From Candidatus Jordarchaeales archaeon (lineage in GTDB: Archaea > Asgardarchaeota > Jordiarchaeia > Jordiarchaeales > Freyrarchaeaceae), in the NCBI GenBank assembly GCA_038889235.1, contig JAWAHN010000001.1, positions 186,001-250,000 of the forward strand: a stretch of 64,000 nucleotides of DNA, written 5' to 3'. The position numbers and the translations under genes were made by a program. How positions within the stretch are numbered: position 1 is the first letter of the stretch; the number at the start of each line of letters is the position of its first letter. Below the pieces are notes generated by a model. The model ran no database searches, was not told the DNA's origin, and saw nothing but the letters and a program-made list of their open reading frames with translations. Of the stretch, positions 12,117 to 29,243 are shown piece after piece.

Positions 12117-15100
12117 ACGGCTTCAAACTCACTTCACTACAACTGAAAAATTTTCTCACATACAGTGAAGAATATCTGAGACTCCCAAAGGAGGGCTTGA
12201 TAGTCATCATAGGCGGAAATGGAACAGGCAAGACCAGCCTATTCAACGCCCTGCGGTTCGTCCTCGGCTCTAATCAGAAAGATCAAAGGTACCGCTCATG
12301 GAGCGACTTCATAAACAACCGTGTGAACGCCGCGTACGGTTGGGTTGAAGCCGTCTTTGAGGGAAACGGAGAGACTATTAAGCTGAGGAGAGAGGTGAGG
12401 CGCGGGGAGGCACCGAGATCATACGTCAACGGGAGAAGGGTAAGCGCGGACGAGTTGAGAAAAGTTGTCCGCGAAAAGCTTGGGATAGACCCAGATAACC
12501 CCCTGGTCTTCGTGCCTCAGGGACGTGTAGATGCGATTAGAGACATGGAGACGGAGAAGCTGAGAGCTTTCATAGAGGAGCTGACTGGTCTCGCAGAGAA
12601 CAGAAGGATTATCGATGAAAAGGAGAGGGAACTTGAAGTGGTACGAAGGGAGGCGGAGAAGCTTAGGGAGGATATTTTAACCTTTCAGGAGAGAGAGGCA
12701 AGGCTGGCTCTGAAGTTTGAAAAGTGGAAGAAGAGGAGGGAGGTGGAGGAGCGGCTTAAGGCGCTTGAGAGCGAGGCCGTATGGAGCAGGATGGCCGAGT
12801 GGGAGGCTAAACTAAAGGAGCTGGCGGAGGCTGAAAGGAGGGCGGCAACATCTGTTGAGGAGAAGTACGCAGCTTTCAAGAAGGTTGCTGGGGAAGTAGA
12901 AGAGCTGGAGAGGGAGTTGGGTGCTAAGAGGGCAAAGGAGGCGGAGATTGATGCTGAGGTTAACAGGCTTAGGGAGGAGAGGATGAACCTTGAAGCTAGA
13001 TTAAGGGGTGTGTTGGGAGGGCGGGATAAGACGCTGGAGAATTTGAGGAGGAAAGAGGAAGAGCTGGAAAGGATTAAGGGAGACGTCGAGGCTCTGAGGA
13101 GGAGAGTGAAGTGGCTTGAGGAAAGAGAGAAAAAACTTGAGGACGACAGGCAGAAAGTGCTGTCAAAAATCGAAGAGTTAAGGAAAGAGCTAGAGAGGAT
13201 TTCCGTTGAGAAGGAGAAGTTTAGGGGGTGGGAGGCTGAGTGGAGAGCTGCTAAGGCCGAGCTGGAGAGGGTGAAGGAGAAAATTGAGGTGCTGAATAAG
13301 GAGAAGGCTCGGGTTGGCTCTGAGCTGGAGAGAGTGGGAAGGAGGATTCTGGAGTGTAACAGGAGGGTGGCGGAGCTCGTTAGCATAGTGGAGAATTACG
13401 ATGAAGATGGGTTGAAGAAGAGGAGAGAGGAGCTGAGGTCGGAAAGGGAGAGGCTTGTAAGGGCGAGTATACGTGTTGAGGATGAAGTCAAGAAGTACGA
13501 TGAGAAGATTAACGCGCTCAGAAAAATGCTTTTAAACGTTGGTAGCAGGGTGCCGGAGCAAGTCGAAATGCTGGAGAGAGATGTGAAAAACAGGAGGATG
13601 GAGGTGGAAGGCCCCCTCCTTAAGCTGATCGAGGTGGATGACAAGTATGCTAAGGCCACCGAGGCGATTTTCGGGAGAGAGCTGCTGGCATTCGTGGCGT
13701 TCGACGAACCCGACTTCCAGGTTTTGAACGAACTTAGAAAAAAGTATAACGCCTGGTGCACCATATACCTTCCGAAAACCCTTGAAGCACCCGCTCTGGG
13801 AAGGATAGAAGACGAAGGGGTTATTGGCTGGCTCGAGGATGTGCTGAAGTTCCCTGAAAGGGTCAGGGTGATTATAAGGGAAATAACCCGAAGGACTTTG
13901 TTAGTTAAAGACTTTAAGAGCGCGCTTGCGCTCAGCAGGAAGTATAAGGGGTTGAGGTTTGTTACAGTTGACGGCGAGGTAGTGGAGGACTTCGAAAACG
14001 TCTTGCGAAGCCCCCACAGGAAAATTAAGGGACTCCTGGACGTTAAGAGAATCACGGAAGAACTGGAGGAGAGCGTTATCGCTAGGGGACGGTTGGAGGA
14101 GGAGCTTAAATCCTTGAAGGAAAAGTTGGACGAGTTGAGGAGGGAGGAGGAGCGGGTTGAAAGAGCGCTCACAGTTATCCCGGAGTGGAGGATGCTTCTA
14201 AGGGAGAAGATGACGCTCGAAGAGGAGGAGAAGAAGCTGAAAGATGAGTTGAGGATGATTGAAGAGAATTTGGCGAGTATTTCAGCGGACAGGGAGAGAG
14301 CGGAAAGGACTCTAAGAAAGGTTGAGGAGAGGAAGCCTAAGGATTACACTGAGCTCGAGAAGGCTGAGATGGAGGCACTAAGAGAGCTCGAAGGGACGAG
14401 GAGAGAGCTTGACAGGTTGGAGGCTGAGCTGAGAAAAGTGATGAAGGAGAGGGAGGGGGCGCTGCTAAATATGAAGATGCTCGAAGCAACCGGCGAGTCT
14501 GTTTCAAAGGAAATCGACCTACTAAGGGAGGAGGTAGTGAGGGGGAGCGAGGAAGCTGAAGAGCTGACTAGAAAGATAGATGAGCTTAAAATAGTGGTTG
14601 AAGAGTGGCTGGCCCGTAAGAGGGACTATGAAAGGTCTATTGAAGTGCTGCTCCAAAAGCTGGGGGAGAGAAGGGAAAGAATGAAAGTGTTGGAGGAGAC
14701 ACTTGGAGAAGGGAGGAAGGAGCTGGAGAGTATTAAGAAAGAGATTTCCGCCGCGAAGGAGAGACTGAAGGAGCTGGAAAGGGAGGTGAGGGAGAGAGGG
14801 TTTGTGAAGCCTGCTAGGGTTAGGTCGCTCCCCGAGATCGAAGTGGAACGCACGCTCCTCGAGGAGGAACTTGCAAGCTTAGCAGACGTGGATGAAGGTG
14901 TCGTGAAAGAGAAGGAGGAGTTGGAGAGGGAGAGAGGATATCTCACTGAGAGATTTGAGAAGGTTAGAGAGGAACTGCAGGGAATTTTGGAGGAGTTAGA
15001 GAGAAGAAAGGAAGAGCACATGGTTAAACTGGTTGAGGCTGTCGATGAAGTTGAGAGGGAGGTTAACGAGCTGCTTGGGAGCGTCAACATGAGGTGCAAG

Positions 15101-15466
15101 TTAAGGGTTGCGGGAGGGTACAGTGAAGCTGGAGTGGAGGTTAAGTTGAGCGTAAAGGGTGGACCTTTAGTCAACGTTACAGCTGCAAGCGGAGGGGAAA
15201 GGTGTTTTTTCGCCATAGCGCTCATGGCGGCACTACAGAAGAAGGCGCGTACACCTCTCGTAGTACTAGACGAGCCGTCGATGCACCTTGACTCTGAAAA
15301 CACCGAGAGGACTGGAAAGATACTCAAGGAGATTTCTTCGGGGAGACAGCTGCTTGTCTTAGTTCCCGACAAGTACTTAGAGTTTACGAAGTATGCTGAC
15401 CAGTGCTACGGGACCGCCACTAGCAGCGGGGTTAGCGTAGTGATACCCGCCCGAATAAAGTGCTGA
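12113..15466 (+). CDS. smc: SMC ATPase (condensin core subunit)
   Basis: 1117 residues. N-terminal head: Walker A IIGGNGTGKTSLFN (about 32-45) and Q-loop VFVPQGRVDAI. Coiled coil from about 165-490. The hinge (about 495-650) includes LLKLIEVDDKYAKATEAIFG and FKSALALSRKYKGLRFVTVD. The return coil runs to about 985. C-terminal head: signature AASGGERCFF (about 1024) and Walker B LVVLDEPSMHLD (about 1049). Most SMCs have LSGGE and DExDAxLD; the A-SGGE and DEPSMHLD here are nearer Rad50/SMC5-6-like variants. ScpA- and ScpB-like genes directly follow, so this is a condensin and not an isolated SMC-like ATPase. Start is TTG 12113, overlapping the previous stop. Confidence 0.88.
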   Translation: MNGFKLTSLQLKNFLTYSEEYLRLPKEGLIVIIGGNGTGKTSLFNALRFVLGSNQKDQRYRSWSDFINNRVNAAYGWVEAVFEGNGETIKLRREVRRGEAPRSYVNGRRVSADELRKVVREKLGIDPDNPLVFVPQGRVDAIRDMETEKLRAFIEELTGLAENRRIIDEKERELEVVRREAEKLREDILTFQEREARLALKFEKWKKRREVEERLKALESEAVWSRMAEWEAKLKELAEAERRAATSVEEKYAAFKKVAGEVEELERELGAKRAKEAEIDAEVNRLREERMNLEARLRGVLGGRDKTLENLRRKEEELERIKGDVEALRRRVKWLEEREKKLEDDRQKVLSKIEELRKELERISVEKEKFRGWEAEWRAAKAELERVKEKIEVLNKEKARVGSELERVGRRILECNRRVAELVSIVENYDEDGLKKRREELRSERERLVRASIRVEDEVKKYDEKINALRKMLLNVGSRVPEQVEMLERDVKNRRMEVEGPLLKLIEVDDKYAKATEAIFGRELLAFVAFDEPDFQVLNELRKKYNAWCTIYLPKTLEAPALGRIEDEGVIGWLEDVLKFPERVRVIIREITRRTLLVKDFKSALALSRKYKGLRFVTVDGEVVEDFENVLRSPHRKIKGLLDVKRITEELEESVIARGRLEEELKSLKEKLDELRREEERVERALTVIPEWRMLLREKMTLEEEEKKLKDELRMIEENLASISADRERAERTLRKVEERKPKDYTELEKAEMEALRELEGTRRELDRLEAELRKVMKEREGALLNMKMLEATGESVSKEIDLLREEVVRGSEEAEELTRKIDELKIVVEEWLARKRDYERSIEVLLQKLGERRERMKVLEETLGEGRKELESIKKEISAAKERLKELEREVRERGFVKPARVRSLPEIEVERTLLEEELASLADVDEGVVKEKEELERERGYLTERFEKVREELQGILEELERRKEEHMVKLVEAVDEVEREVNELLGSVNMRCKLRVAGGYSEAGVEVKLSVKGGPLVNVTAASGGERCFFAIALMAALQKKARTPLVVLDEPSMHLDSENTERTGKILKEISSGRQLLVLVPDKYLEFTKYADQCYGTATSSGVSVVIPARIKC

Positions 15467-15476
15467 GGTGGGTGGC

Positions 15477-16040
15477 GTGATAGACGAGGTACTGGCGATG
15501 GTTGAGACTGGAAAGGTTAACCCAGCCGACGTCGACTTGAAAGCCCTCCTAGTGGAAGTTAGGGAGGCTAGGAGTGGAGTCGAGTGGGGGGAGAAGATTT
15601 CAAAGTTAATACGGCTGGCTAGGCTTAAAGTTAGGGCACTGATTGAAAGTGTGATCTTACGGTTTGGGAAGCCGCCAGGTTTCGGCGTCACCTCCCCGCT
15701 GGTAATTCCGTGGATTGGTTTTAGTGAGGCTGAGAGGGCGCTTAGAGAGCTGGTGGAAGCTATGTCTAAGAGAATGGCTGCGAAGGGTGGTGACGAGACC
15801 TCACCAGCACTGCTCGTAGATAAGGAGACCGTTGAACTACATGTGGCTGAGGAGAGAAAGTACAGGGAATACGTGCAGGGTAAAATTAGAGAGCTGGGAG
15901 AGGCGAGATTGGAGGACTTGCTTGAAGGCGACATCTTAGAAAGGGCTTCCATCTTTGTAGAGGTTTTGAGGCTGATAAGCGAGGGGGTTTTAGGGTATGA
16001 CAAGTTGAGCGGGAGGGTTTTTGCGCTTGAACGAGTATGA
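15477..16040 (+). CDS. scpA: ScpA-like kleisin
   Basis: About 187 residues from GTG 15477, six bases after GAGGTG; GTG 15468 would add three. The N-terminal MIDEVLAMVETGKVNPADVD matches the kleisin entry (LLxLIExGEIDxWDID), followed by a helix KLIRLARLKVRALIESVILR that would contact the SMC neck. The C-terminal winged helix reads ASIFVEVLRLISEGVLGYDK and ends in LSGRVFALERV, like the ScpA cap-binding end. The loop between (about 60-130) is short. The family closes the SMC ring and recruits ScpB. Its end overlaps scpB by 20 bases. The match was made by eye, but the flanking SMC and ScpB make it convincing. Confidence 0.78.
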   Translation: MIDEVLAMVETGKVNPADVDLKALLVEVREARSGVEWGEKISKLIRLARLKVRALIESVILRFGKPPGFGVTSPLVIPWIGFSEAERALRELVEAMSKRMAAKGGDETSPALLVDKETVELHVAEERKYREYVQGKIRELGEARLEDLLEGDILERASIFVEVLRLISEGVLGYDKLSGRVFALERV

Positions 16041-16479
16041 AGTAGTGTTTGCTAGTATGGTTGCCAGTGGTTGGAGAGGGGTTAGCGTTAGGGATGTTGC
16101 AAGGGTCCTAGGAGTGGAGGGGGAGTTGGGAGAGTGGTATGCGATAAGGACTTTAGTGGGTATGGCAAAGATTTTAAGGCCTCTGGGTGTAGTCTTGAAG
16201 TTTAATCCTGTGACTGGGATGTGGGTTGCAACGCAAAGTAGTAAAACAGCTAAGGCTGCTGGGCTCCCGAAAAGGTTGAAGGCAACCCTCGCCGCCGTGC
16301 TTAGAGTTCAAAGCGAGCTTGGAGTTGCATCCATAGAAGAGGTTGTGAAGGTTAGGGGGAAGAGCAGGAGAAGCACTCTGGCAGATCTTAGGGAGCTTGA
16401 AGAAAAAGGGCTTGTTGAGCGTGTAGGAAAAAACGAGTTTAGGGTGTCAGGGGTGCTTGCCCCCTTCCTGGAGGGGTGA
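16021..16479 (+). CDS. scpB: ScpB-like double winged-helix protein
   Basis: 152 residues with two winged helices: EYEVVFASMVASGWRGVSVR followed by DVARVLGVEGELGEW in the first, and LPKRLKATLAAVLRVQSELG, SIEEVVKVRGKSRRSTLADL and LEEKGLVERVGKNEFRV in the second. The RGK-S-LxxLxxxGLVExxGK pattern matches the second wHTH of ScpB (RGxxS...L...GLIExxG). ScpB binds the ScpA linker as a dimer and regulates the SMC ring. TTG 16021 overlaps scpA; TTG 16027 is an alternative. It is the last gene of the operon and ends nine bases before the end of the convergent giant coiled-coil gene. Confidence 0.75.
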   Translation: MRLNEYEVVFASMVASGWRGVSVRDVARVLGVEGELGEWYAIRTLVGMAKILRPLGVVLKFNPVTGMWVATQSSKTAKAAGLPKRLKATLAAVLRVQSELGVASIEEVVKVRGKSRRSTLADLRELEEKGLVERVGKNEFRVSGVLAPFLEG

Positions 16480-16487
16480 GCGCTGGT

Positions 16488-19400
16488 TCATAGCTTCCTA
16501 GCTTTCGCCGTTACATCTTGTAGGACCACGTTAAGCGCCTTTATTAGTTCCATGTTTGTCGTGTATATCCCGACGGGTTGGGGGGCTGCGACCGCCAAAG
16601 CCATCTCTTCGTTGTCCCTGTTTATAATGTAGAGGTTTGTCGGGTAGTGTCTGATTTGTACGTTGGGTGGGAGACCTGCGGGCGGAACACCTTTAACGTC
16701 GGTGACTATTATGGCTCTTTGCCTCGTGAGTTGCTTTACAGTGTCGAGTGGAACGTCGTCTATCGATGGGACCACCATGGTTATGGTGCTCTTGGTGTTT
16801 AGTAGGAGCGCCTTTATGAGTAGGTCCATGTGGGGTTTTCCCGCTATTCTACCGGTGTCCTCGAAGGGTTGAGGCTCTATTTCTTCGGCGAGCCTTGCTA
16901 CCGCGGATATTGTCTCGAGAGAGCGTGAAACGAGGTTCAGCCCTTTGTCGACGAATTCGGCGATCCGTGCTCCGCTTTCCTTAACAAGCGACGAGGACGA
17001 CCTCGCAGAGGAGGACAAGAGCTCATTGACCGAGGACTCAGCAGCTGAAACACTGCCCCGCCACTCTTCTAAGCTCTCTCCGAGTATCTTTGAAATCCTC
17101 TGCTCCGCTTCACTCGCTGTCGCGTCAAGCTCTTTGGAGACTGCTTCAACATGCTGCCTAACGCTTTGAAGGGACTGGAAGAGGCTTGTTTTAAGCGTTG
17201 CATGCCGCTTTTCGAGAGACGCGTGGAGGGAGCGCTGGAAGTCAGCAAGCTTGTCCTTGAGCACTGAGGAGGGCTTCTCCACAATGCTCGAAAGCCCTCT
17301 TACCTTCACTTCTATGACGTCGCGAATTTCCGCCGCGTAGCTGTCAATTGTCGAAAGCAAGTCGTACTTCACCTTTCCAGTGTACGACGCTAGGTCCCTT
17401 GAGACGGTAGCCGCCACCTCTTCGAGCCCCTTTAGAACCTTACCCTTCACCTCTTCCAGTGAGGCTACGCCTTCGCCCAGCAGCCTGCCAGCCTCCTCCC
17501 TGAACTCGGCTACGAATCCCGTCAGCTTTGAAAGGCCTTCCTTCAGCTCATCAGTAAGCCGGCGTTCCAGCTCATCTCTTATCATCGATATCTCCTTCAC
17601 TGAGAAGGAGACTTCTTCCTCAAGTGACGATGCAAACTTGTTAAGCTCCTTGCTTGTTCGCGATGCCACGTCAACTGCTACTTCGCTGAGCTTCGACCTA
17701 ATTTTTTCAGTTTCTTTCTCAGCAGCCTTAGGCAGGTTTGAACCAAGGGATGCAATAGCCTCCTTAAGCTTCGCCACTGATTCTCCAAGTTCGCTGTCAA
17801 CTTTACCTATCAACTGGTTGACGCTTGCCGAGGTTTCTCTGAGGGATGATGTGGCTTCATCAACAGCTTTCTTTAATTCATCTACCTTAGAGCTCATGGA
17901 CTCCTTTACCTTACCCGCCTGCTCCACCCAGGAGTTAGCCAACTCTCTCGTTCTCGCCGACATTGACTGGAACAAGCCCTTAACATTTTCTTCGGCGTTT
18001 GACAGGCTGCGGGCGACGCTCTCCCTAGCACTTGTAAGGGACTTTGCGGCTTTTAACCTTGAGGATTCCAGGTTCTCTTTTATGCTTGAAGCTGTGGACG
18101 AAAGCTTAGACTCTGCCTGCGACGAGGCCTCCTCAAGCATGGAGGACAGCTCTGATAGGAGTCTGTCGGCGGCCGCGCTAGTTTTTGAGCTTAGCGACGC
18201 TGCAAGTTCCGCCACCTTTTTCTCTAGTGATGAAGACAACTCCCCAACTAGTACGTTCACTTGCATTAGCGCCGCTTTCCCCTTTTCTGCGGCTTCATTA
18301 ACCTGTGAGGTAAACGAGTCCACAACGTTCCTAGTCGAAGAGAGAAGACCCCTCAACGTTGAGAGACTTTCGGTGTAGGACTTACCCAGCTGTAACCACG
18401 CCTCCTCGGCTTCAGCTTCCATTGTAGAGGAGTGCGCGGCCACCTCCTTCTCGGCTTCAGCTATCTTGGAACTTATTTTCGTTGATGAACGTGCTGTGGA
18501 TTCCCTTACCGAGCTGGCTTCGGCGGCGGCTTTTTCTAAGAGTGCAAGCATAGCGCTCTTAGCAGAGTTGATTGAGGTTATGGCTTTTTCTGCTTCGTGC
18601 GAGCTTATGGCGTTAAAGCGCTCTTTGAAGTCGTTGAAGAGCGCGTCCACCCGGCTGCGGAGGTCGCCCAGTTGTTTCGAGGTGAGCGTGTTGTACATTG
18701 AGGTGGCATCCCTCAGCTTTGAGGTTAACGCTCTGAATGATTCGTTTAGGGAGCTTGCCGCACCACTGACTAGGGATAGGGCGCCCTCCATGGCGACCCC
18801 GATGTTTCCAGTCATTCTGTTATAGTTGTCAACAATTGTCGACGATAAAGAGTCAACTGTAGCGTTCACCTGCAAGCACGCTTTCTCGAAGCTGGACGAG
18901 GCAGACGAGAGAGTTTCAGCGACTTTCTCAGCGTAGCTCTCAACTTCCCTTCTAATGTTGCTTCCCATGTTCGTAATGGATGCGCGGGCTTTCTCCACAG
19001 TTTTTCCTAACGCTTCCCCAACTTGTGACAATGTCTCAGCTGACAGCGAAGATATTCTCTGCTTTGTGGACTCGTCCTCGCTTTCTATGGATGCAAGCAA
19101 GCTTAACGTTCCCTTCTCAATTCGCTCTCCTAGGTACGTTATCACCTTGTCCACTTCGTCTATAAGCGAGGAGGCTATGGATTCAACTCTTTTCCTCTGG
19201 TCCTCGATAGCGTCTTCAAGTTCAGACCTTAGGCTCAGAACAGCGTCTCTTTGCCCTTTCAACGTGCTTAAGAGGGAGAGGAGTTCATCCTTACCAAGCT
19301 TCTTCTTGCCCTCAGCAACCTCTTCTATCGTTTTTATCACGTCAAGCACCTTGCTGACAACTGCTCTAGCTTTCTCCCCGACCGACGCCAAGCTGCTCCT

Positions 19401-21908
19401 TTGGAAGGCTATGCTGTCACTGAACCTGGCGGACACGTCATCTTTGAGTCTAGCCAGCTCGGAGGATACTGCTTCAGAGAAGGACTTCAAGCTCACATCA
19501 AGCTTTTTCCTTCTCTCGTCGAGCACCTTTGAAAGACCCGACACGAGGCGGTCCAAAAAGTCTTCAACTAGTTTAGCTGTCTCTCTGCCTTCTTTCTCAA
19601 ACGCGGATGAGAGCTCTTCTTCCGCCTTCTTGCAACTTTCAGCAAGTAGGGATGTGGATTCCTTCACATGGCGTGACGTGGAGCTCAGGGAGGAGGAAAC
19701 CTCTTTGGCCACAGCGTCTATTTTGCCTTTCGCATCCCCCGCGAACCTGCCAGCCAGTTCCCCGAACTCTTTTGCAGTCGATTCCACTTCTTTCAGCGTG
19801 TCTTCCTTCGCTTTTCTGACTTTTTCCAGTGTGCCCTTTACAGCGTCCTCGGCTTCTGTTTCAGCCTCATTGGCTGCACTCAACACCACCTTCAAGTATT
19901 CTTCAAGTGCGCTCAACAAGTTCTTTTCGAGCTTTTCAAGGTCAGACTTAACCGACGATGATACGGATTCGGAATAGCTCTTCAGTGATTCGGTTATGGA
20001 AGCGATTAATGCCATCGATGATGACGCAATGTTTTCCGCAGCTGCGGATGCTTCTTTTGATACAGCTTCAATGAGCGCTGCGCAGTTTTCCCCAGCATCG
20101 TTGATAGCCTTCGACGCCAACGCCGCCACACTTTCGAGAACGTTTTTTAACCTACTTTGGAAGGAAGACGACAACCTTTTTACTTCAGACAGGAACTTCT
20201 CCCTAATGGATGAGGCAAGCTTCTCATACTCGCCTAAAGTCGATTCAATAGATGAGACTTCTTCTAGAAGGGAGCTGGAAGAGGCTGAAAAGGAGTTCTG
20301 GAGCCCGGATAGTGAGGTTGAGGCTTTGTCTGCCAGCTCTGCGGCTTTTCCCCTGAGTGACGCAATCTCTTCCGATGCCGAACTGGTAAAAGAGCCACCC
20401 CCCTCTCTGATGGAGGCTACCAGTGACTCTAATTGTTTTTCCGCGCTGCTTCGGAAGCCGCTCAGTGCGCCCCTAACTGTTAGGGAGACAGACGAGAGAG
20501 CGTCTTTGACCAGTTCTTCGGCTAATTTGAGGGCTGACTCTACGTCCGCTTCTGCTCCTGCAACCATGCTTGATATGGTAGAGTTGCACTCACGAAGCAC
20601 CGAACCCGTGGACTTGGCAGCTTCTTCAAGCGACCCCTGCAACGAATTCGCAGCTTCCTGAACTATGCTTACTGCGTTGTCTATTGATGAAGTAGCTTTT
20701 TCAGCCTCGCTCTTCAACGCGCCGCGCAACTCTGTAAGCCTTCCCGAGGCGCTCTCAGCAACATCTGTCAGAGCGCGTGAAAGCTCGGAGCTCACAGACC
20801 TTAACGACGACGCCATGGACTCGACTTGCTCTTGTACTAGGACCTTGAGCCCTTCAGTCTCTCTTATCAGGGACGCGTATGCCTCATTCACTGTTTCAAC
20901 CATCTCATCTGCCGTTGAGAGTATGCTCTCCCTAGCGTCCTCTGATGCCCCTTGACATAACTCTGAAAGACGCGTCGAGAGACGGCCTTTTATTTCTGAG
21001 AGCCGGTTTATGGGTGCCGCCAGCGACTTAGCTAGCTTAGCTGACGTTTCCTCAAGTTCGGACTCAATTTTTCTCAGGGCTTCATCTGATATGCTTGATA
21101 GGCTTCCCTTAAGCGTCTCAGCAAACCTTTCTATTCTAGCTATGGATGCTTCAAGTTCGGGTGAAACTCTTACAAGAAGGTCTCTCGATCTTTCCTCCAT
21201 GCTTCGCAGTGCAGAGTTGACGGATTCTTCTACTCGTTCCCTAAACTTTGAGACCGATGAGCGCGTTTCTTCCATAAAATCTGACAAAAGCTTTTCAATT
21301 GAGTCCTTCAACGCAAGGAGGGATGATGTAAAATCTTCTACGGCTGCTGTGACACTCTCCACTACTTTGCTGGCTGCCAAGAGAGAGTGCTCCTCGTGCG
21401 TTTTCACCGCTTTATCTATGGCTTCATTTATGCTTCGTGCTTCACCTAGAATCTTCACCCTTGGCTCCTCTACGAAAGCCCTGATTTTGCCCACGGTTTT
21501 CTCTTGCACCGAGCTGAGCTTCTTCTCAAGTAGTTCAAGGCTTGCCTCGACGGTCGAGCGGAAGCGGGCGGAGTGCTCCTCCGCCTTCTTGAGTATTTCC
21601 TCGGCGGTCTTAGTGCTCTCGCGTAGAAGACCCTCTTTTAACTCTAAGAGGGATTTCTTCAGCTCATCCACAGTTTTACCGGTGAGGGTTATTCGCGGCG
21701 TTAGGGCAATGTACTGGTCGACTTTTCCGGCTATCTTTTTCACGAGGCCGGCTAACTGGAGGGCGGCGAGCTCCCTTTCAACTTCCTCCAGTGGAAGTCC
21801 TGTGTAGACGGATAGCTCGGCTGCCGTCTTAGCCCCGAACCCTACACATGCCGCGTAAATCTTCATTCTCGCTCCTTCGAGCCCGACCTCTTTTAAAACC
21901 TCCTCCAA
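16488..21908 (-). CDS. Giant 1806-residue coiled-coil protein with TrmB-like N and C ends
   Basis: Residues 1-70 form a TrmB-type winged helix (MKIYAACVGFGAKTAAELSV, GLPLEEVERELAALQLAGLV). Residues from about 75 to 1690 are almost proline-free, rich in Ala, Ser, Glu, Lys and Leu, with continuous heptad-like helix. The last 115 residues return to a compact fold (KPHMDLLIKALLLNTKSTIT, IDDVPLDTVKQLTRQRAIIV) that resembles the C-terminal domain of TrmB-like regulators. In ordinary TrmB proteins these two ends are joined by a short helix; here the insert is more than 1600 residues, which as one helix would exceed 200 nm. It is the third gene of its operon, 7 bases after the 767-residue gene. Role unknown: a DNA-tethered scaffold beside condensin is plausible. 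Confidence 0.75.
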   Translation of the reverse strand: MEEVLKEVGLEGARMKIYAACVGFGAKTAAELSVYTGLPLEEVERELAALQLAGLVKKIAGKVDQYIALTPRITLTGKTVDELKKSLLELKEGLLRESTKTAEEILKKAEEHSARFRSTVEASLELLEKKLSSVQEKTVGKIRAFVEEPRVKILGEARSINEAIDKAVKTHEEHSLLAASKVVESVTAAVEDFTSSLLALKDSIEKLLSDFMEETRSSVSKFRERVEESVNSALRSMEERSRDLLVRVSPELEASIARIERFAETLKGSLSSISDEALRKIESELEETSAKLAKSLAAPINRLSEIKGRLSTRLSELCQGASEDARESILSTADEMVETVNEAYASLIRETEGLKVLVQEQVESMASSLRSVSSELSRALTDVAESASGRLTELRGALKSEAEKATSSIDNAVSIVQEAANSLQGSLEEAAKSTGSVLRECNSTISSMVAGAEADVESALKLAEELVKDALSSVSLTVRGALSGFRSSAEKQLESLVASIREGGGSFTSSASEEIASLRGKAAELADKASTSLSGLQNSFSASSSSLLEEVSSIESTLGEYEKLASSIREKFLSEVKRLSSSFQSRLKNVLESVAALASKAINDAGENCAALIEAVSKEASAAAENIASSSMALIASITESLKSYSESVSSSVKSDLEKLEKNLLSALEEYLKVVLSAANEAETEAEDAVKGTLEKVRKAKEDTLKEVESTAKEFGELAGRFAGDAKGKIDAVAKEVSSSLSSTSRHVKESTSLLAESCKKAEEELSSAFEKEGRETAKLVEDFLDRLVSGLSKVLDERRKKLDVSLKSFSEAVSSELARLKDDVSARFSDSIAFQRSSLASVGEKARAVVSKVLDVIKTIEEVAEGKKKLGKDELLSLLSTLKGQRDAVLSLRSELEDAIEDQRKRVESIASSLIDEVDKVITYLGERIEKGTLSLLASIESEDESTKQRISSLSAETLSQVGEALGKTVEKARASITNMGSNIRREVESYAEKVAETLSSASSSFEKACLQVNATVDSLSSTIVDNYNRMTGNIGVAMEGALSLVSGAASSLNESFRALTSKLRDATSMYNTLTSKQLGDLRSRVDALFNDFKERFNAISSHEAEKAITSINSAKSAMLALLEKAAAEASSVRESTARSSTKISSKIAEAEKEVAAHSSTMEAEAEEAWLQLGKSYTESLSTLRGLLSSTRNVVDSFTSQVNEAAEKGKAALMQVNVLVGELSSSLEKKVAELAASLSSKTSAAADRLLSELSSMLEEASSQAESKLSSTASSIKENLESSRLKAAKSLTSARESVARSLSNAEENVKGLFQSMSARTRELANSWVEQAGKVKESMSSKVDELKKAVDEATSSLRETSASVNQLIGKVDSELGESVAKLKEAIASLGSNLPKAAEKETEKIRSKLSEVAVDVASRTSKELNKFASSLEEEVSFSVKEISMIRDELERRLTDELKEGLSKLTGFVAEFREEAGRLLGEGVASLEEVKGKVLKGLEEVAATVSRDLASYTGKVKYDLLSTIDSYAAEIRDVIEVKVRGLSSIVEKPSSVLKDKLADFQRSLHASLEKRHATLKTSLFQSLQSVRQHVEAVSKELDATASEAEQRISKILGESLEEWRGSVSAAESSVNELLSSSARSSSSLVKESGARIAEFVDKGLNLVSRSLETISAVARLAEEIEPQPFEDTGRIAGKPHMDLLIKALLLNTKSTITMVVPSIDDVPLDTVKQLTRQRAIIVTDVKGVPPAGLPPNVQIRHYPTNLYIINRDNEEMALAVAAPQPVGIYTTNMELIKALNVVLQDVTAKARKL

Positions 21909-21915
21909 ACATTCT

Positions 21916-24219
21916 TCACCCCTTTGAGAGCTCCTTGCTTACGGCTTCAAGCGCCTTGTAAGCATCCTCTACAACCTTTAGAAGGGAGGAGATCTTCTTC
22001 GAAATGTTGCCTCCAGCTTTCTTCACCTCAGATTCGTTCTTTTCGAGGAACTCCTGGAACTCCTTTAGGGACGACTCCACCTTGGAAAGGGCTTCTCCTA
22101 TCTGGGAGGCTATGTTTGACAGAGTGCTTGAAAGTTCCTCTCTCCCGGACTCTGCAACTTTCTCAATCTGTTTCGATGCACCTTCATTTATGCTTCCAGC
22201 TTGTGCGTCTATTTTGCCGTGGTGCTCTTCGAGGACACGCTTCACCGACGAGGTGAACGATGAATACGCGGAATCCACAGAAGTTATGGCGCTGCTGAAT
22301 GAGGCCTCAACAGAGGCCGCGTTCGACTCAACCTCCTCTCTAAGTCTCGAAATGCCGTCTGATACCTCACCTTTCAGTTTTCCGGAGAGGTTTAGCAGAG
22401 CCTCTTCCACGTCTGATTGCGCTGACTCTACGGTTGAGGCTACCGAGGAGTCTAGTTCCAAGAGAGCGCGGCTGGAGACGCCTTTCAGTCGTTCACCCAA
22501 TTTCGCTATAGCTTCCACTAGAGCTGCACCCTGACCATCAACTTCTCCAATCAGAGTTTTTAGCTGGAACTCCGAAGCTCTCTTGGCTTCCTCGAAGTCA
22601 GCTTGTACAGCCTTTTGCCTCTCCTCTATTCTATACGCTGTTTCCTGTGAGATGTCGTCGACGCGTTTCTTAACGCTCTCAACCAAGCTTTTGAGGCTTG
22701 CCTCAGCACTTTCCTTAAATTTGTCTGTTCTCTTCGACGCTTCTTCCGCCATCTTGAATGCCAAAGAGGAAGTTTCTGTACTGAATGAGCTGCTCAGCTC
22801 TCTACCTGATTTGAGGAGGGCTTCAGCCAATTCGTGCATGCTGTTCTTGAAAGACTCCAGTTCGCTCCTCATCTTTTCTCTGCTCTCTCTCAAGCGCTCT
22901 TCGAACCCCTTGCTCACCTCTAGAACCCTCTCGTAAAATAGGTTGATCGACTCGTCCACTACGTTTGTGAACCCTTCCTCGTATTGTTGGAAGAGCGCTT
23001 GGATGAAGTTGAGTTCACTTGAAAGCGTCTCGTCGATGCTCTTGTTTATGGCTTCCACGGTCAACGTGAACTGGTTCACTAGGCTTGAAAGCTGCCCGCT
23101 CACCTTGTCCTGCAACGATTTCACCACGCCCTCCAGGTGTTCTAGGTAGTCTACTAGCCCGGACCCTAGATCAGACGTGAACGATGAGACCTTGCTGAAG
23201 AAAGCCTCCTTCTCCGCTTCTACAACCTGGTTCAGCTTTTCCTTCGCCTCGGCGCTCGCCGCCTCTATGGAGCTCACGGTTTCCGCAGCCACCGCATCTA
23301 TCTTTTCCTTGAACTCAGCTGTTAAGCGTTCAAGCCGGTTTACTAGGGTGGATGAAACTGTTGAAGCCTTGTCTCTGATTTCAGATGACATCGTTGAGAC
23401 CTGGGACTTGTATGCTTCAACCTCGCCACTAAGAGCCTCAGCTATCCTGCCAGCGCTTTCTTCAACCTCGCTTTTAAGTGACACTGCTGTGCTGTTCACC
23501 AGTTCCTTCGTGTCGTTCAGCGTGGAGACGAGATCTGCTGATGAGGACTCAAGCAGGCTTATATTGGACTTGAACGATGAGTCGATTCTTTCTTTCAACG
23601 AACCAACGTGCCGCTCAATGGAGGACTGTGATGAGGAGACAACCTCATCTATTTCGGACTGCAAGAGTAACGATGTCTCCCTTAACTTGGAGGACGACTC
23701 TTTCTTGAGGCTTTCCATAGTGGAGGTCAGGGTTGAAGAAGCGCTCTTGATGGTTTCCTCCACTATTTCCACGTGGTTTTCAAGCCACCTTCCAGCTGAT
23801 GACGAGACTTCGCGCAAAACATCGGCGACGCGCTCCCCGCTCTCCATAAGGGATGACTTTAAGGTCCCCTCTTCGCCGCCTACGGCTGAAAGAATGCTGT
23901 TCACGACGTCTTCTACGCTTTTCTTGAGCTCCTCAGCTTCCTCCGACACCAAAGCTCCAACTTTTTCAGCCATAGAGTCTATCCAGGACGATATATTGTT
24001 TTGAAGTTCCTGGACGACTGAGGAGAAGCTGCCTTTGAGCTCTTTCCCTAATGTTGCAGTGTCCTTCGAGGCTTTCTTAAGCTGGTTGACCATTGAAGAG
24101 AAGGCTTCAACAACGCTGGAAAACGATGCTTCAACCTCTTTTTGAAGAGAGGCAAGACTGCTCCTAGCCTCACCTATCTCGCCTAGGCGGGCGTCAATCT
24201 TCTGCCTTAATTTTTCCAC
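21916..24219 (-). CDS. 767-residue coiled-coil protein
   Basis: Essentially the whole length is predicted helix with the same Ala/Ser/Glu/Lys/Leu composition as the downstream giant protein, including recurring SS/AS pairs (for example EVSSSAGRWLENHVEIVEET and KLRETSLLLQSEIDEVVSSS). There is no signal peptide, membrane segment, globular domain or catalytic motif. Prolines are absent over most of the sequence. It lies between the STAND-like ATPase (5 bases upstream) and the giant coiled-coil gene (7 bases downstream), so all three are made together. It could pair in a hetero-coiled coil with the giant protein. Apparent similarity to methyl-accepting proteins or SMC arms would be compositional; neither family's signature is present. 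Confidence 0.72.
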   Translation of the reverse strand: MEKLRQKIDARLGEIGEARSSLASLQKEVEASFSSVVEAFSSMVNQLKKASKDTATLGKELKGSFSSVVQELQNNISSWIDSMAEKVGALVSEEAEELKKSVEDVVNSILSAVGGEEGTLKSSLMESGERVADVLREVSSSAGRWLENHVEIVEETIKSASSTLTSTMESLKKESSSKLRETSLLLQSEIDEVVSSSQSSIERHVGSLKERIDSSFKSNISLLESSSADLVSTLNDTKELVNSTAVSLKSEVEESAGRIAEALSGEVEAYKSQVSTMSSEIRDKASTVSSTLVNRLERLTAEFKEKIDAVAAETVSSIEAASAEAKEKLNQVVEAEKEAFFSKVSSFTSDLGSGLVDYLEHLEGVVKSLQDKVSGQLSSLVNQFTLTVEAINKSIDETLSSELNFIQALFQQYEEGFTNVVDESINLFYERVLEVSKGFEERLRESREKMRSELESFKNSMHELAEALLKSGRELSSSFSTETSSLAFKMAEEASKRTDKFKESAEASLKSLVESVKKRVDDISQETAYRIEERQKAVQADFEEAKRASEFQLKTLIGEVDGQGAALVEAIAKLGERLKGVSSRALLELDSSVASTVESAQSDVEEALLNLSGKLKGEVSDGISRLREEVESNAASVEASFSSAITSVDSAYSSFTSSVKRVLEEHHGKIDAQAGSINEGASKQIEKVAESGREELSSTLSNIASQIGEALSKVESSLKEFQEFLEKNESEVKKAGGNISKKISSLLKVVEDAYKALEAVSKELSKG

Positions 24220-24224
24220 TTCAA

Positions 24225-25943
24225 TCAGCCTCCAATCTTTTCTTTAATAAGTCTGAAGTCCCTCTCTAGCGCTTTATTCCCTCTAAAAGATTTCAGGGCT
24301 TTCTCGCACAGAGAGAGGGCATGGGCGGAGTCTCCAGCTTTGATGAGGTACTCGGCCGCCCTCCTGTAAAATACCCTTGAAAGCATCAAGGAACCCGCCT
24401 TGAAGTACTCGTCTCCGGCATCCTCAAACATCCTAGCTGCAGACCTAGCAGACGACTTTGCCCGCCACTCGACGCCAGACTTTTCGTAGAGCTCTGAGGC
24501 TTGAGCCAACATCACCCTTGCGTAGTGCAACTTTCCAGCGTCAAAGAAGAGCCTCGAAGCCGCGTCTAGAACCATTCCCGCTCTTTCGTAGTCACCCAGC
24601 CTTCTGTGGAGGTCTGCCGCAATGTTAAAGAGGACGCATGCGTCGTAGAATAGTCTTTTTTCAAGTGCCTCCTTAGCGGCGTCTTCAACACTGCTAGCGA
24701 GCTCGACGACTAGGGATTGAAGTTTTCTCGCCGCGAGTATTGTGGCGGAATCTTTAAACCAGTTGACGATCGTCTCGTTTACGGGCATCCCACTCTCGAC
24801 TGTTTTAAGGATCAATTTTAGAAGAATGCTCGCCTTGCCATAAATCTGGTCGACATTGACAGATAGCCGCAGGTCGTGGAAGAGGGCGTCGGAGACCAGA
24901 AGTATAAACGAGTCCTCGACCTCCACCAACCCCTTTTCCTTCAGTGACGCTATGGTGCTCTCGAAAATGTCGCCAAGCGACTGTTTGATGGCGTCGAGGG
25001 GGGCGAAATTGTATTCTCCCGAGATTATACGGTCTATTACGAAGGTCTCATCCCCCGAAATTTGAAAGATGCCGCCCAGCGGGTTTTCCTTTAAAAGCTC
25101 GCTTGCCTTTCTGAGTGACTCATATGTGACCCCGCGTTCACCCGAAACTGCGAGTGAGGAGTAGAGGAGTAAGCAGAGCTTGTATGGAATCCCGCCAGAG
25201 TCCTTTATCATTTCATCTACAACTTTCTCTTCTACCTTGAAACCGAGCTTCCCTGATAATTTTTGGATCAGAACACGCATGTCAGATATCGGCATGGGTC
25301 CAAGCTCGACCACGTGGAAAAGGTTACTAGCACCCCCCACTATTTCCCCCACGAAATCTCTCTCGGCGGCTACAACAAAAAACGCGGGAAAACCGCTTTC
25401 CGCGAAAACTGAAAGAACTCTCCGGAATAAAGGGTAAGCCGAGTTGTATCCAAGCCAGGCGAAGCGCTCAAAAGAGTCACAGAAAAAGAAGACAGGCCTC
25501 GTGATGGCTTCTTTCACCTTGTCCATGTCCTCCATGAAGCGCCCAATGAACAACTCCTCAAATGCGGAGTCAACTTCCTTGGGTAGGGGGGGAGGAGCGG
25601 CAAATGGCTTCTCCCCTATGAGCTTCTTGCGAGCTCCAGGAGCTAGGGAATCTAAGCGCTTCTTAACTTCTTCAAAGAAGGTTCGTGCCCTAGAGAAGGA
25701 GACTGTAAGAGGTATCGTTGTGACGCCTTCAACACTTGCAATATCCCTAAACTTGTTGAGGAGAGATGACTTGCCTATCCCGGGGATGCCCGAAACTAAA
25801 ACGGCTCTCCTAGTCTCAGAGCCAGACTTAACATCCAGTATGAATCGCTGGAAGAAGCGCACTTCATCTGACCTTCCAGTAAAAGTATCGCTCGCTGCAG
25901 GTGACAGTAAGGGCCTAAGCAACAATCCACCCCCAACCCACAT
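24225..25943 (-). CDS. STAND-like P-loop ATPase with C-terminal TPR-like repeats
   Basis: 572 residues. The ATPase core opens with DTFTGRSDEVRFFQRF (box typical of AAA_16/Orc-like STAND NTPases), Walker A VSGIPGIGKSSLLN (about 50-63) and Walker B PVFFFCDSFERFAW. A winged-helix-like region follows (about 300-350). The last 150 residues repeat TPR-like helices: YDACVLFNIAADLHRRLGDY, GMVLDAASRLFFDAGKLHYA and FYRRAAEYLIKAGDSAHALS. STAND proteins couple ligand sensing to assembly. It heads the coiled-coil operon. ATG 25943 has no ribosome site; a TTG at 25922 sits just after GGGGGTGG and may be the real start. Confidence 0.78.
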   Translation of the reverse strand: MWVGGGLLLRPLLSPAASDTFTGRSDEVRFFQRFILDVKSGSETRRAVLVSGIPGIGKSSLLNKFRDIASVEGVTTIPLTVSFSRARTFFEEVKKRLDSLAPGARKKLIGEKPFAAPPPLPKEVDSAFEELFIGRFMEDMDKVKEAITRPVFFFCDSFERFAWLGYNSAYPLFRRVLSVFAESGFPAFFVVAAERDFVGEIVGGASNLFHVVELGPMPISDMRVLIQKLSGKLGFKVEEKVVDEMIKDSGGIPYKLCLLLYSSLAVSGERGVTYESLRKASELLKENPLGGIFQISGDETFVIDRIISGEYNFAPLDAIKQSLGDIFESTIASLKEKGLVEVEDSFILLVSDALFHDLRLSVNVDQIYGKASILLKLILKTVESGMPVNETIVNWFKDSATILAARKLQSLVVELASSVEDAAKEALEKRLFYDACVLFNIAADLHRRLGDYERAGMVLDAASRLFFDAGKLHYARVMLAQASELYEKSGVEWRAKSSARSAARMFEDAGDEYFKAGSLMLSRVFYRRAAEYLIKAGDSAHALSLCEKALKSFRGNKALERDFRLIKEKIGG

Positions 25944-26094: not shown

Positions 26095-27927
26095 TCATAT
26101 TTTTGCTGCTATGTCTCCGAGTCCAAGCTCTTCGAGCTTTTCTTTTGTTGGTTTTCCAGTCTCCCAATCCCATTTTCTGAACTTGTAGTATTCTTTCAGG
26201 AGCACTTCCATGTTGGGTGTTTTTCCGGCTGTTGATCCTTCCTCAAGCGGGGTTATGGCTATCTTAGGAAGTTTATCATGCTGTCTTGTTACGCCAAACT
26301 TGTTGTTCAACGCTCGTTTTATGTTAAAGATCCTTTCCCCTGTCTTGCGAATAGACTCCGGCGTGTAGTCCCACCCTGTTATAGCGTTTAGGAAGTCGCA
26401 AACCATGGTTAAGGTGGCAGAGGAGAACTTGCAGAGAATCAAGGAGTCGTAGACTTCACGTACATCCTGGTATTTGACCACGGCGTCCACTCTACCTTCA
26501 AGAGTGAAGCGATCCATCTGGAGTATGTTAAGCTCCGGTATTGCTCCAACTCCCAGGTCTACTTCGTAGAAGTCGCCTCTGAGGTGGCATGCCCCCCTGT
26601 TGCCGGTAGCGTAGGATAAGGCTTGCCCAAAGAACGCCCTTGGATCATGCATTGGAATCTCGAGGCCCTTCACGTTTGCCGCTTCCTCTGGGTTCACTTT
26701 GAAGTGCTCCGCCATTCCCTTGGTTCCCTCTGCCAGTATGTTGCCTATGCCCTCCCGTTTCGCGATCATTCCTATCAACTTTATTATTGTCTCACTGTTC
26801 CCCCATTCGAGCTTCATGCCAGCGTCTTTCTTCTTTATAACTCCCTTCTCGTAAAGGTAGAAGGCGAAGGCGATGCTCACGCCGGCCGAAATTGTGTCGA
26901 TTCCGTAAACGTTGCAAAGGTGGTTCGCGTAGAGTATTGCGTCTAGATCGTAGTGTTCTAAGAGGGGGCCGAAAGCAACCATGGTCTCGTATTCGGGTGT
27001 ATCTATTTCTTTTACTCCTCTTTTGTTGTATTCCACAATTTTGCCGCACGCTACGGGGCACCCATAGCATGCATAGTTTCTCACCATGTACTTATCCTTG
27101 AACAATGCTGAACTGATCTTTTCTATCGGGAAGAGAGCGCGAGTGAAATACCTTGTAGGTGCATCACCTATCTCGAATGCCATGTCGAGGTAGCCGTAAG
27201 TTCCAAACTCCTTTAGCAGGTGGTAGAAGGGAGATGCTTCCATCAGAAGCCTGTGAAAGTCTACGAGACTCTTTAACATATCCTCATTAGCAATTTCTGC
27301 CCTTGCACTGCCAACCGCAGCCACGGCCTTAAGTTTCTTGGCGCCCATTACTGCTCCAAGCCCGCATCGCCCGGCTGCTCGACCCTCGTCGTTCATTATG
27401 GAAGCATATTTAACTTTGTTTTCCCCTCCGATACCTATGCAGGCGACTCTAACCCTCCGCTCTCCCAAGTCTTTCTTGATTATCTCTTGGGTTTCATACG
27501 TGTCCTTACCCCAGAGGTGGCTCGCATCCTTTATCTCCGCCGTCGAGTCGTGAATGAAAACATAAACAGGTTTCTCCGCGGCACCAGTAATTATGACTCC
27601 ATCTACCCCTGCCCCCTTGAGTGCTGGACCGAAAGCTCCACCAGAGCAAGCCTCCCCCCAGAAGCCATGCGCAGATTTTCCTGCAACAATATACCTGCTC
27701 CCTTGAGGAACTGCTGTTGCCGTGAAGGGCCCTGTCATGAAAGCGAGGTAGTTGTCGGGGCCTAAGGGGTTGGTTTTTGCGTCTAGAACGTCGAACAGTA
27801 GTCGAGCGGCGAGCCCGCTCCCCCCAATGAATGCCTTGGCGTCCTCCTCTTTCAGCTTTATCGTTTCAACAGAGCCCTTAGAAAGATCTATCTTCAAGAT
27901 TTTGCCGTGGTATCCATACATTGCCAT
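26095..27927 (-). CDS. Aldehyde ferredoxin oxidoreductase family tungstoenzyme
   Basis: About 610 residues. The N-terminal GYHGKILKIDLSKGSVETIK and FIGGSGLAARLLFDVLD are standard AOR starts; TGPFTATAVPQGSRYIVAGK and NDEGRAAGRCGLGAVMGAKK bind the bis-pterin cofactor. The 4Fe-4S ligands are C-x2-C-x3-C in YACYGCPVACGK plus a distal Cys in DSLILCKFSS. The family oxidises aldehydes to acids with ferredoxin. ATG 27927 shares its A with the TGA of the alcohol dehydrogenase gene (TGATG), so translation is coupled. That neighbour would make or use the aldehyde, pairing alcohol and aldehyde redox chemistry. No separate accessory gene is adjacent. Confidence 0.9.
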   Translation of the reverse strand: MAMYGYHGKILKIDLSKGSVETIKLKEEDAKAFIGGSGLAARLLFDVLDAKTNPLGPDNYLAFMTGPFTATAVPQGSRYIVAGKSAHGFWGEACSGGAFGPALKGAGVDGVIITGAAEKPVYVFIHDSTAEIKDASHLWGKDTYETQEIIKKDLGERRVRVACIGIGGENKVKYASIMNDEGRAAGRCGLGAVMGAKKLKAVAAVGSARAEIANEDMLKSLVDFHRLLMEASPFYHLLKEFGTYGYLDMAFEIGDAPTRYFTRALFPIEKISSALFKDKYMVRNYACYGCPVACGKIVEYNKRGVKEIDTPEYETMVAFGPLLEHYDLDAILYANHLCNVYGIDTISAGVSIAFAFYLYEKGVIKKKDAGMKLEWGNSETIIKLIGMIAKREGIGNILAEGTKGMAEHFKVNPEEAANVKGLEIPMHDPRAFFGQALSYATGNRGACHLRGDFYEVDLGVGAIPELNILQMDRFTLEGRVDAVVKYQDVREVYDSLILCKFSSATLTMVCDFLNAITGWDYTPESIRKTGERIFNIKRALNNKFGVTRQHDKLPKIAITPLEEGSTAGKTPNMEVLLKEYYKFRKWDWETGKPTKEKLEELGLGDIAAKI

Positions 27928-29243
27928 CACCAATCCACATCTTTTCCTTCATACGCGTAATCAAACAGCTTCCTAAAGTCGTCTATACTAGCTGGCCGCG
28001 TGCTAAAGATCGCCGTCGGGTCTTCGTACGCGTACTTTACAAGAACCTCCTTCTTCTCCTCGAACTCGCTTCTACTTATCCCGAGATCCTTGATCGCTAT
28101 TGGAACACCGAGACCTGTTATGAACTCCTTGAAGAACTGAGTGAGCTTTTCAAGTGTTTTCTCCTTAGTCTTTCCTACCACGTCCAAGTCTAGGCTGAAG
28201 TTCAGCCACTTCGCAAGACCAACGTATCCATCGGTCACTTTCGCCTCAAACCTTAGGGAGTAAGGTATGAACATTCCGACCGCTCTGCCGTGATGAATGT
28301 TAAAGACTTTCCCGAAGGAGTGGCCCAGCGCGTGGGTTATAGCTGTTCCCGCGTTTCCGAAAGCCAGCCCAGCCATAGTCGCGGCTATTAACATTTTTTC
28401 TCTGGCATTCATGTTTCTGGGCTGCTTGTATACTATTGGGAGATACCTTATGATGAGCTCTATGGCTTTGAGAGCCATCGGGTCTGTTAGATCGCTTCCC
28501 CAGTTCCTGTTTATGTAGGCGTCTACCGCGTGAGCTAAGGCGTCTAAGCCTGTTCCTACAGTGAGTTCGGGAGGCATTCCAACGGTTAGCTCCGGTAGAA
28601 GTATTGCGAATTCAGGTACACACTCAGGGTGCTGCGCGGCTAGTTTTCTCGGTGGAGTCTGGCTAACGTCCGTCAATACGAAAGCCTGCGTGGCTTCGGA
28701 CCCTGTTCCAGCGGTGGTTGGTACAGCCGCCAGGTAGGCCTTCTTTCTTAGCCCCAAAGGTGTCAGAGCTTCGACCATGGAGAAGTCTATGTCAGGCCGC
28801 TCGTAGAGGATCCATGCCGCCTTAGCTGTGTCTATGGCTGAACCGCCTCCTACAGCTACTATGAGGTCTGGTTCAAACTCGCGCATTTCCTCGACTATTT
28901 CGCGCACTACTGGTATGGGTGGCTCCGGGACAGCCTTGTCACATATTTTAACAGTAAATTGCACCATTTCGAAGTAGGGTATTAGGGACTCTGCAAGGTT
29001 CCTTATGGCTTTGTCTGTAATAATGAAGGCTCGCTTCTTTTCAAGCATAGCTGCCCCGATGGACAACCCTATTACAAGGCCAAATTTTCCTATTAGGATC
29101 CTTGGACAGAGGAAATATCCTACAAGGCTGCGCATCGGCTTGGCTCCAAGCAAAGTGTAAAGCATGCGTGTCCCGTATTCATAAGGCTTCCAAGTCACTC
29201 TCCATCCCCCTTTTGAAAAAACCTCCTCAAACCCCCGAAACAC
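27927..29243 (-). CDS. Iron-containing alcohol dehydrogenase (group III)
   Basis: 438 residues, a little longer than the usual 385-400 owing to an N-terminal extension of about 50. NAD(P)-binding GGGSAIDTAKA and PTTAGTGSEATQAFVLTD are present. The metal ligands are D and H in TGLDALAHAVDAYINR, then H in TAITHALGHSFG and H in FNIHHGRAVGM. It probably interconverts an alcohol and aldehyde. It is co-transcribed with the AOR-type enzyme that overlaps its end. GTG 29243 lacks a ribosome site, and a TATA box lies only about 28 bases upstream, so the transcript is probably leaderless. Confidence 0.9.
   Translation of the reverse strand: MFRGFEEVFSKGGWRVTWKPYEYGTRMLYTLLGAKPMRSLVGYFLCPRILIGKFGLVIGLSIGAAMLEKKRAFIITDKAIRNLAESLIPYFEMVQFTVKICDKAVPEPPIPVVREIVEEMREFEPDLIVAVGGGSAIDTAKAAWILYERPDIDFSMVEALTPLGLRKKAYLAAVPTTAGTGSEATQAFVLTDVSQTPPRKLAAQHPECVPEFAILLPELTVGMPPELTVGTGLDALAHAVDAYINRNWGSDLTDPMALKAIELIIRYLPIVYKQPRNMNAREKMLIAATMAGLAFGNAGTAITHALGHSFGKVFNIHHGRAVGMFIPYSLRFEAKVTDGYVGLAKWLNFSLDLDVVGKTKEKTLEKLTQFFKEFITGLGVPIAIKDLGISRSEFEEKKEVLVKYAYEDPTAIFSTRPASIDDFRKLFDYAYEGKDVDW

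Follow-up and report, generated by a model that had tools for sequence, protein, structure and literature searches.

A conserved gene cassette of Asgard archaea encoding a STAND-type ATPase and two long coiled-coil proteins with matched arms

A 64,000-nucleotide stretch of the genome of a Candidatus Jordarchaeales archaeon (assembly GCA_038889235.1, contig JAWAHN010000001.1, forward-strand positions 186,001 to 250,000; hereafter, the window) carries three consecutive minus-strand open reading frames (ORFs), at 24225-25943 (572 amino acids (aa)), 21916-24219 (767 aa) and 16488-21908 (1806 aa), which lie tail-to-tail with an operon encoding an SMC protein. This arrangement raises the question whether the three genes work together and, if so, whether they serve condensin, as had been proposed when this DNA was read from its letters alone (the sequence-only reading), or make up a machine of their own. 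We find that they form a conserved cassette encoding a STAND-type P-loop ATPase (P0003), a middle coiled-coil protein (P0002; hereafter, M) and a giant coiled-coil protein (P0001; hereafter, G), and we propose, with moderate confidence, that their products would assemble into an ATP-switched, DNA-anchored rod complex, composed of the STAND ATPase together with two long hendecad rods that pair in antiparallel fashion. Support for the architecture is good; the function is our inference. The proposal builds on the recurrence of the cassette, the TrmB-type ends of G, the hendecad coils, the matching of the arms and the tip loop, all of which were recognized by sequence comparison.

A three-gene cassette in Asgard archaea

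The cassette lies at 202.5-211.9 kilobases (kb) of the contig, with intergenic gaps of 5 and 7 bases. The relatives keep the identical three genes in the identical order, and homologues back the starts and ends chosen here; the three ORFs are therefore not a product of chance. Thus, the genes identified in the sequence-only reading are real, and its suggestion that two coiled-coil proteins and an ATPase form a single conserved unit is borne out by the recurrent cassette. Its remark on the shared composition of the 767- and 1806-residue proteins also holds, both being rich in S/E/L/A/K and showing an 11-residue period, and its description of these proteins as huge is justified: "giant" is a fair word for G, which has 1806 residues here and 1168-1812 residues in the closest families.

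The host is an Asgard archaeon (Jordarchaeia/Freyarchaeia), and the cassette was found in metagenome-assembled genomes of Jordarchaeia/Freyarchaeota, which are Asgard archaea. A search with the ATPase profile detected one copy each in 56 of the 228 genomes of the phylum; in a wider sample of 393 genomes, a single additional genome gave a weak match, again inside the phylum, and by this search the cassette is absent from about 165 genomes outside it. The order ATPase-M-G is seen in eight families (f1, f2, f8, f13, f15, f17, f20 and f21; f-numbers and L-numbers label families and loci, respectively), with a contig end falling inside G in f8 and, in f11, after M; f22, f23 and f25-f27 have two-gene forms. 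The ATPase tree requires 13 changes of family label, which is the minimum possible, so that inheritance appears to be vertical; no cassette relative was found in the viral contigs searched. Altogether, the cassette appears to be Asgard-specific, vertically inherited and present in a single copy. No description of it was found among open-licence papers, nor was any kind of system found there into which the cassette as a whole would fit.

The same survey bears directly on condensin. The G gene ends 8 bases from the ORF at 16021-16479 on the plus strand, the final gene of the SMC operon (7977-16479, plus strand), which encodes a MoxR-type AAA protein, a VWA/metallopeptidase-like protein, an AAA-lid protein, SMC (1117 aa), a 190-aa protein and a 152-aa winged-helix protein. 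The close spacing reported previously is confirmed, but the name scpB given to the last gene is not, given that the only models matched by the 152-residue protein are generic winged-helix ones. What speaks for a partnership, in which the ATPase would control a filament or scaffold working with condensin, is the tail-to-tail arrangement in this one genome. However, in about 50 cassette loci from other genomes, none contains a homologue of P0006 (SMC), P0009, P0010 or P0011; P0008 has a single match, a marginal one (E=5e-4) to the cassette ATPase itself, and P0007, with zero phmmer matches, is uninformative. In the synteny survey that had been set beforehand as the refuting test, the homologues are mainly far from smc. 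Nor does the expected co-occurrence with the MoxR-SMC operon hold: a MoxR-VWA-SMC operon of the same make-up is found in another family without the cassette (L058), and the sister family has its smc gene, which encodes a much more distant SMC (about 25% identity), on contigs other than that of the cassette. As a syntenic claim, the partnership is refuted, and we consider a role of the cassette as a condensin partner hardly credible; the placement is best read as chance because there is no SMC neighbour elsewhere and the operon occurs without the cassette. The pairing of MoxR and VWA genes with SMC seems in itself unusual.

The ends and arms of the two rod proteins

Both termini of G appear to be of the TrmB type, a feature that the sequence-only reading missed, as it did the midpoint symmetry of both rods. 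The isolated N-terminal domains of G, a winged helix (residues 1-75; 21684-21908, on the minus strand, as are all features of the cassette), match TrmB (PF01978) in 9 of 9 members, and their profile matches the TrmB structure 3qph (E=3.9e-12); for the protein in the window, the score is 32.0 bits with the isolated domain, against a cut-off of 25.6, and 22.6 bits, below the cut-off, with the whole protein. The C-terminal domain (residues 1660-1806; 16491-16931), which has a conserved RDxEE motif and the invariant residues R108, D109 and E112, resembles the C-terminal part of ordinary Asgard TrmB proteins (hhalign probability 96%). The TrmB effector domain PF11495 was matched in only 1 of 10 G members (E=2.1e-6), and a search with the C-terminal domain of G against the PDB gave no match. 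By its N-terminal domain, then, G probably belongs to TrmB; the membership of the C-terminal domain, which looks remotely TrmB-like, is uncertain.

In ordinary TrmB proteins, a family of archaeal transcription regulators, a short dimerising helix joins the N-terminal winged helix to the C-terminal domain (PMC4158304). G shares with these regulators (3qph) the succession of a TrmB winged helix, a coiled-coil helix and a TrmB-like C-domain; in contrast to them, it has a coil of about 900-1550 residues, apparently folded on itself, in place of the short helix, its C-domain is only remotely related, and its gene shares an operon with those of a STAND ATPase and a second rod. The same phylum also has ordinary TrmB proteins, which are about 240-270 residues long. 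In a genome of the same genus, a 643-aa ORF (L117) matches the C-terminal profile of G (4e-14) and is apparently another large TrmB-like protein. A TrmB-ended coiled-coil protein of 1238 aa was also found in f7, outside the cassette and adjoining a transporter-like gene (L056:5823-9539); its arms show no clear symmetry and have uncertain boundaries.

Like M, G consists almost entirely of helical coil. The hydrophobic period is 3.65-3.67 in M, G and all relatives, that is, the value of a hendecad coil (11 residues; 3.66), and 3.50 in the SMC protein of the window. Conservation of G peaks at both ends and in a block near residue 870, at the midpoint of the coil; this block (residues 800-945; 19074-19511) is flanked by an N-arm (residues 96-799; 19512-21623) and a C-arm (residues 946-1645; 16974-19073). 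Arm lengths were measured from anchored blocks in 32 giants and 41 M proteins. The two arms of G are matched in every cassette member, over lengths spanning 374-706 residues: the N/C pairs are 705/700 in the window and 706/700, 475/459, 374/391, 490/484, 563/551, 524/525, 418/420, 502/509, 524/528, 400/394, 520/514 and 446/435 in relatives. The correlation between N-arm and C-arm lengths is r=0.995 for G (12 length classes) and r=0.998 for M (distinct length classes), and none of 200,000 permutations was as good, with the reservation that this p value is generous, the length classes being not all phylogenetically independent.

Among five pairs of closely related giants, insertions and deletions lie nearer to mirrored positions about the tip of G than random placement would have it (combined p=0.0006). 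For example, in an f13 pair that is 76% identical, the missing segments comprise 33 residues at -353 and 40 at -156 from the tip, and 33 residues each at +353 and +173; in an f17 pair, 106 residues are lost at -151 and 104 at +128 to +138. The tip itself is a Gly/Lys-rich loop region (residues 864-878; 19275-19319), with a shift of the hendecad phase, a loop of variable length and Pro or Pro-Gly in several relatives. Because of the phase shift, the loop indels and the Pro/Gly residues, the tip is probably a turn, and G is most likely a fold-back hairpin. The equal arms and mirrored indels imply a fold-back rod of about 105-116 nm: at the standard rise of 0.15 nm per residue, the arms would measure about 105 nm and the distance from the winged helix to the tip about 116 nm. 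A low-confidence AlphaFold model of a 1168-residue G breaks the helix at the FGK loop of the tip. Hydrophobic cross-correlation of the arms was uninformative, the signal being periodic.

M is likewise a hendecad coil with equal arms, from about 320/322 residues down to 157/145, and its conservation peaks near residue 383, the midpoint. The central block (residues 320-445; 22885-23262) is 125-129 residues long in 40 complete relatives, and the hendecad phase runs through it unbroken. The charge complementarity of M is highest for a fold at residue 383, which ranks first or second among 201 offsets at tolerance 2-3 (z about -3.4 to -4.2), a result that holds with near pairs left out; as a positive control, the arms of SMC, whose antiparallel pairing is known, show up in the same test as a cluster of offsets. 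M thus appears to pair in antiparallel fashion about its own midpoint. It may do so as a hairpin, but an antiparallel dimer is the more probable form because the phase is unbroken and the length of the block is constant. A low-confidence AlphaFold model of M nevertheless breaks the helix at 204, 382-384 and 559-563, symmetrically about the middle. Two further relationships were considered and abandoned: when forced into global mode, hhalign aligns the midpoint blocks of G and M with 90% probability, but the effective sequences in the controls were too few for paralogy to be claimed, and a correspondence of the arm length of G with the length of M, seen in f1 and in parts of f2 and f17, fails in other families.

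The two-gene loci contain variants of these proteins. In f22 and f23 (L094, L095, L098 and L099), only the ATPase and an M-like protein of 718-721 aa are found at the locus. In f25-f27 (L091, L092 and L097), the ATPase is accompanied by a single protein (1048-1123 aa), whose N-terminus is winged-helix-like and whose C-domain is TrmB-like; several stretches of this protein resemble the M block, and it is possibly M and G combined.

The ATPase and the comparison with known systems

On the motifs tested (P-loop, Walker A and B, GxP), P0003 is a STAND NTPase, as the sequence-only reading had proposed. The AAA_16 (37.1 bits) and nSTAND1 (35.3 bits) models both match above the curated cut-off. In the Walker A motif (GIPGIGKSS, residues 52-60; 25764-25790), G55, G57 and K58 are invariant in 16 homologues, and in the Walker B-like strand (FFFCDSFER, residues 151-159; 25467-25493), D156 is invariant and the next acidic residue is not. 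The GxP motif (SGGIP, residues 249-253; 25185-25199), a hallmark of STAND proteins, is kept in the closer families and degraded in others, including the f15 and f17 ATPases. The C-terminal part probably consists of TPR/SNAP-like repeats, the TPR and SNAP models matching it with every score below the cut-off. P0003 resembles STAND NTPases, such as nSTAND1 and MalT-like proteins, in its P-loop, Walker B, GxP and putative C-terminal TPR-like sensor repeats; unlike them, it has no effector domain of its own, has lost GxP in some families and, at every locus with a complete neighbourhood, lies next to a gene for a long coiled-coil protein.

The layout of a STAND domain with putative TPR repeats also resembles that of MalT-like STAND regulators. 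Together with the TrmB winged helix and TrmB-like C-domain of G, it brings up an alternative in which G would be a TrmB-type transcription regulator that senses a ligand and carries an oversized stalk, the STAND ATPase would be its co-regulator, and the rods would relay or cluster regulators at promoters. We consider this rather unlikely. The ordinary TrmB proteins of the phylum indicate that a 1550-residue coil is not needed for regulation, the symmetry of the arms is kept through large changes in length, which a mere linker would not require, and a Pfam scan of M detected no recognised DNA-binding domain. Even if G is a mere regulator, the presence of so long a stalk (about 100 nm) on a transcription factor still calls for explanation.

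In the rod complex that we favour, G would be a TrmB-family protein in which a hairpin with arms of equal length (705/700 residues) has taken the place of the dimerising helix, with the DNA-binding-type head and the effector-type domain together at one end and the conserved tip at the other. The head would hold DNA, perhaps under the control of a bound ligand, and the STAND ATPase would sense a signal via its repeats, oligomerise with ATP and assemble or release the rods, the complex as a whole spacing or tethering DNA over about 100 nm.

Several points weigh against this proposal. DNA binding, ATP hydrolysis and complex formation are predictions, and the system is not universal, most of the 228 genomes of the phylum having no match. 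Taken singly, 2 of the 5 pairs show no significant mirroring, and one f2 pair loses 103 and 74 residues. The antiparallel charge test for G is no more than suggestive when near pairs are retained or only lightly excluded (rank 6-19 of 401 at tolerance 1-3) and weaker otherwise, although a weak signal is expected if the register drifts along 700-residue arms. For M, the minimum at tolerance 0-1 lies not at offset 0 but 2 residues from it. The AlphaFold models, with predicted local distance difference test (pLDDT) values of 62 and 45, only hint at the positions of turns, and arm symmetry alone fits a hairpin and an antiparallel dimer equally.

Matched antiparallel arms with joined end domains are the signature of SMC and Rad50 machines. 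Like SMC, MukB and Rad50, the cassette rods would have two matched long arms about a conserved midpoint, the termini held together and an ATPase in the complex. However, the coil is hendecad (3.66) rather than heptad (3.50), the ATPase is a separate STAND protein, and no sequence relation was detected. SMC_N has no match in P0001 or P0002, and the termini of G are TrmB-like, without the halves of an ABC-type ATPase head; the hinge domain PF06470 was found in P0006 only, the midpoint of G being a short loop within a helix with no globular hinge. Foldseek searches with the model of M list MukB, Smc5/6, condensin and JetABC among weak matches with low template modelling (TM) scores. The cassette thus is not an SMC system, the ABC head and globular hinge being absent, though it is SMC-like in layout; of the giant SMC-like tether envisaged previously, the term SMC-like holds as a description of the architecture.

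It is possible, if on the doubtful side, that the cassette specifies a second, independent SMC-like machine, in which antiparallel, DNA-anchored rods of about 100 nm with a TrmB head, gated or driven by a separate STAND ATPase, would organise or tether the Asgard chromosome. If this is true, long-rod DNA machines evolved more than once, with unrelated end domains and a separate ATPase subunit. Asgard archaea are the closest known relatives of eukaryotes, which are thought to derive from this phylum, and the cassette would be a conserved Asgard system that is undescribed in the open-licence literature searched. Expression should be feasible with the shorter relatives, in which M has 427-485 aa and G 1168-1260 aa.

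STAND ATPases often act in defence. The SMC-like Wadjet and Lamassu systems employ rod proteins (PMC10586767), and PADLOC models match the coils of the cassette; the three genes might accordingly form a STAND system directed against viruses or plasmids (Avs-, Lamassu- or Wadjet-like), with the rods sensing or seizing foreign DNA. This appears quite improbable. The PADLOC matches of the rods are to the ZorA, LmuB and Leo models, which are coil-rich themselves, and the ATPase has no PADLOC match; the cassette is vertically inherited in one copy per genome and was not found in viral contigs; and there are no defence genes among the neighbours examined and no nuclease or other effector. As for Zorya, the long coiled tail of ZorA yields profile matches to both rods, but the rods have no MotA-like membrane domain or transmembrane segment, and the matches fall on the coil only. 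Membership in Zorya, LmuB or Leo (PADLOC and NCBIfam matches) was therefore rejected as coil-only. Matches to the apolipoprotein, ApoLp-III and similar Pfam models, which exceed the cut-off, likewise probably reflect an 11-residue amphipathic periodicity rather than homology.

Neighbouring genes and the cell envelope

In some families, the neighbours of the cassette point to the membrane. In f15 and f21 (L118-L121), DUF58, CARDB and polytopic membrane genes lie directly upstream of the cassette and are co-directional with it, in a run that includes membrane proteins and a polytopic HEAT protein; in the f21 locus, MoxR is located further upstream; in f20, the polytopic membrane gene adjoins the cassette. 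These loci favour an envelope or cytoskeletal scaffold, in which the rods would link the nucleoid or cytoplasm to a membrane system, with the MoxR-DUF58-CARDB-membrane genes as partners. Nevertheless, we regard such a scaffold as unlikely: this kind of neighbourhood is confined to f15, f20 and f21, whereas in other families the neighbours are unrelated metabolic enzymes, and in the present genome DUF58, at contig position 569.4 kb, is separated from the cassette by more than 350 kb. Furthermore, no transmembrane segment was predicted in any core cassette protein, and all three are predicted to be soluble.

Several other features of the neighbourhoods can be mentioned. Genes encoding V4R domains are found near the cassette, at varying positions, in f13 and f25-f27 (L044-L047, L091, L092 and L097), which may be coincidence. 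Upstream of the cassette in the window (26095-29243, minus strand) are genes that, named by reading their sequences, resemble those for an aldehyde ferredoxin oxidoreductase and an iron alcohol dehydrogenase; an aldehyde ferredoxin oxidoreductase-like gene also adjoins the cassette in one f2 genome (L039). Most of the large ORFs in the window were called with TTG or GTG starts.

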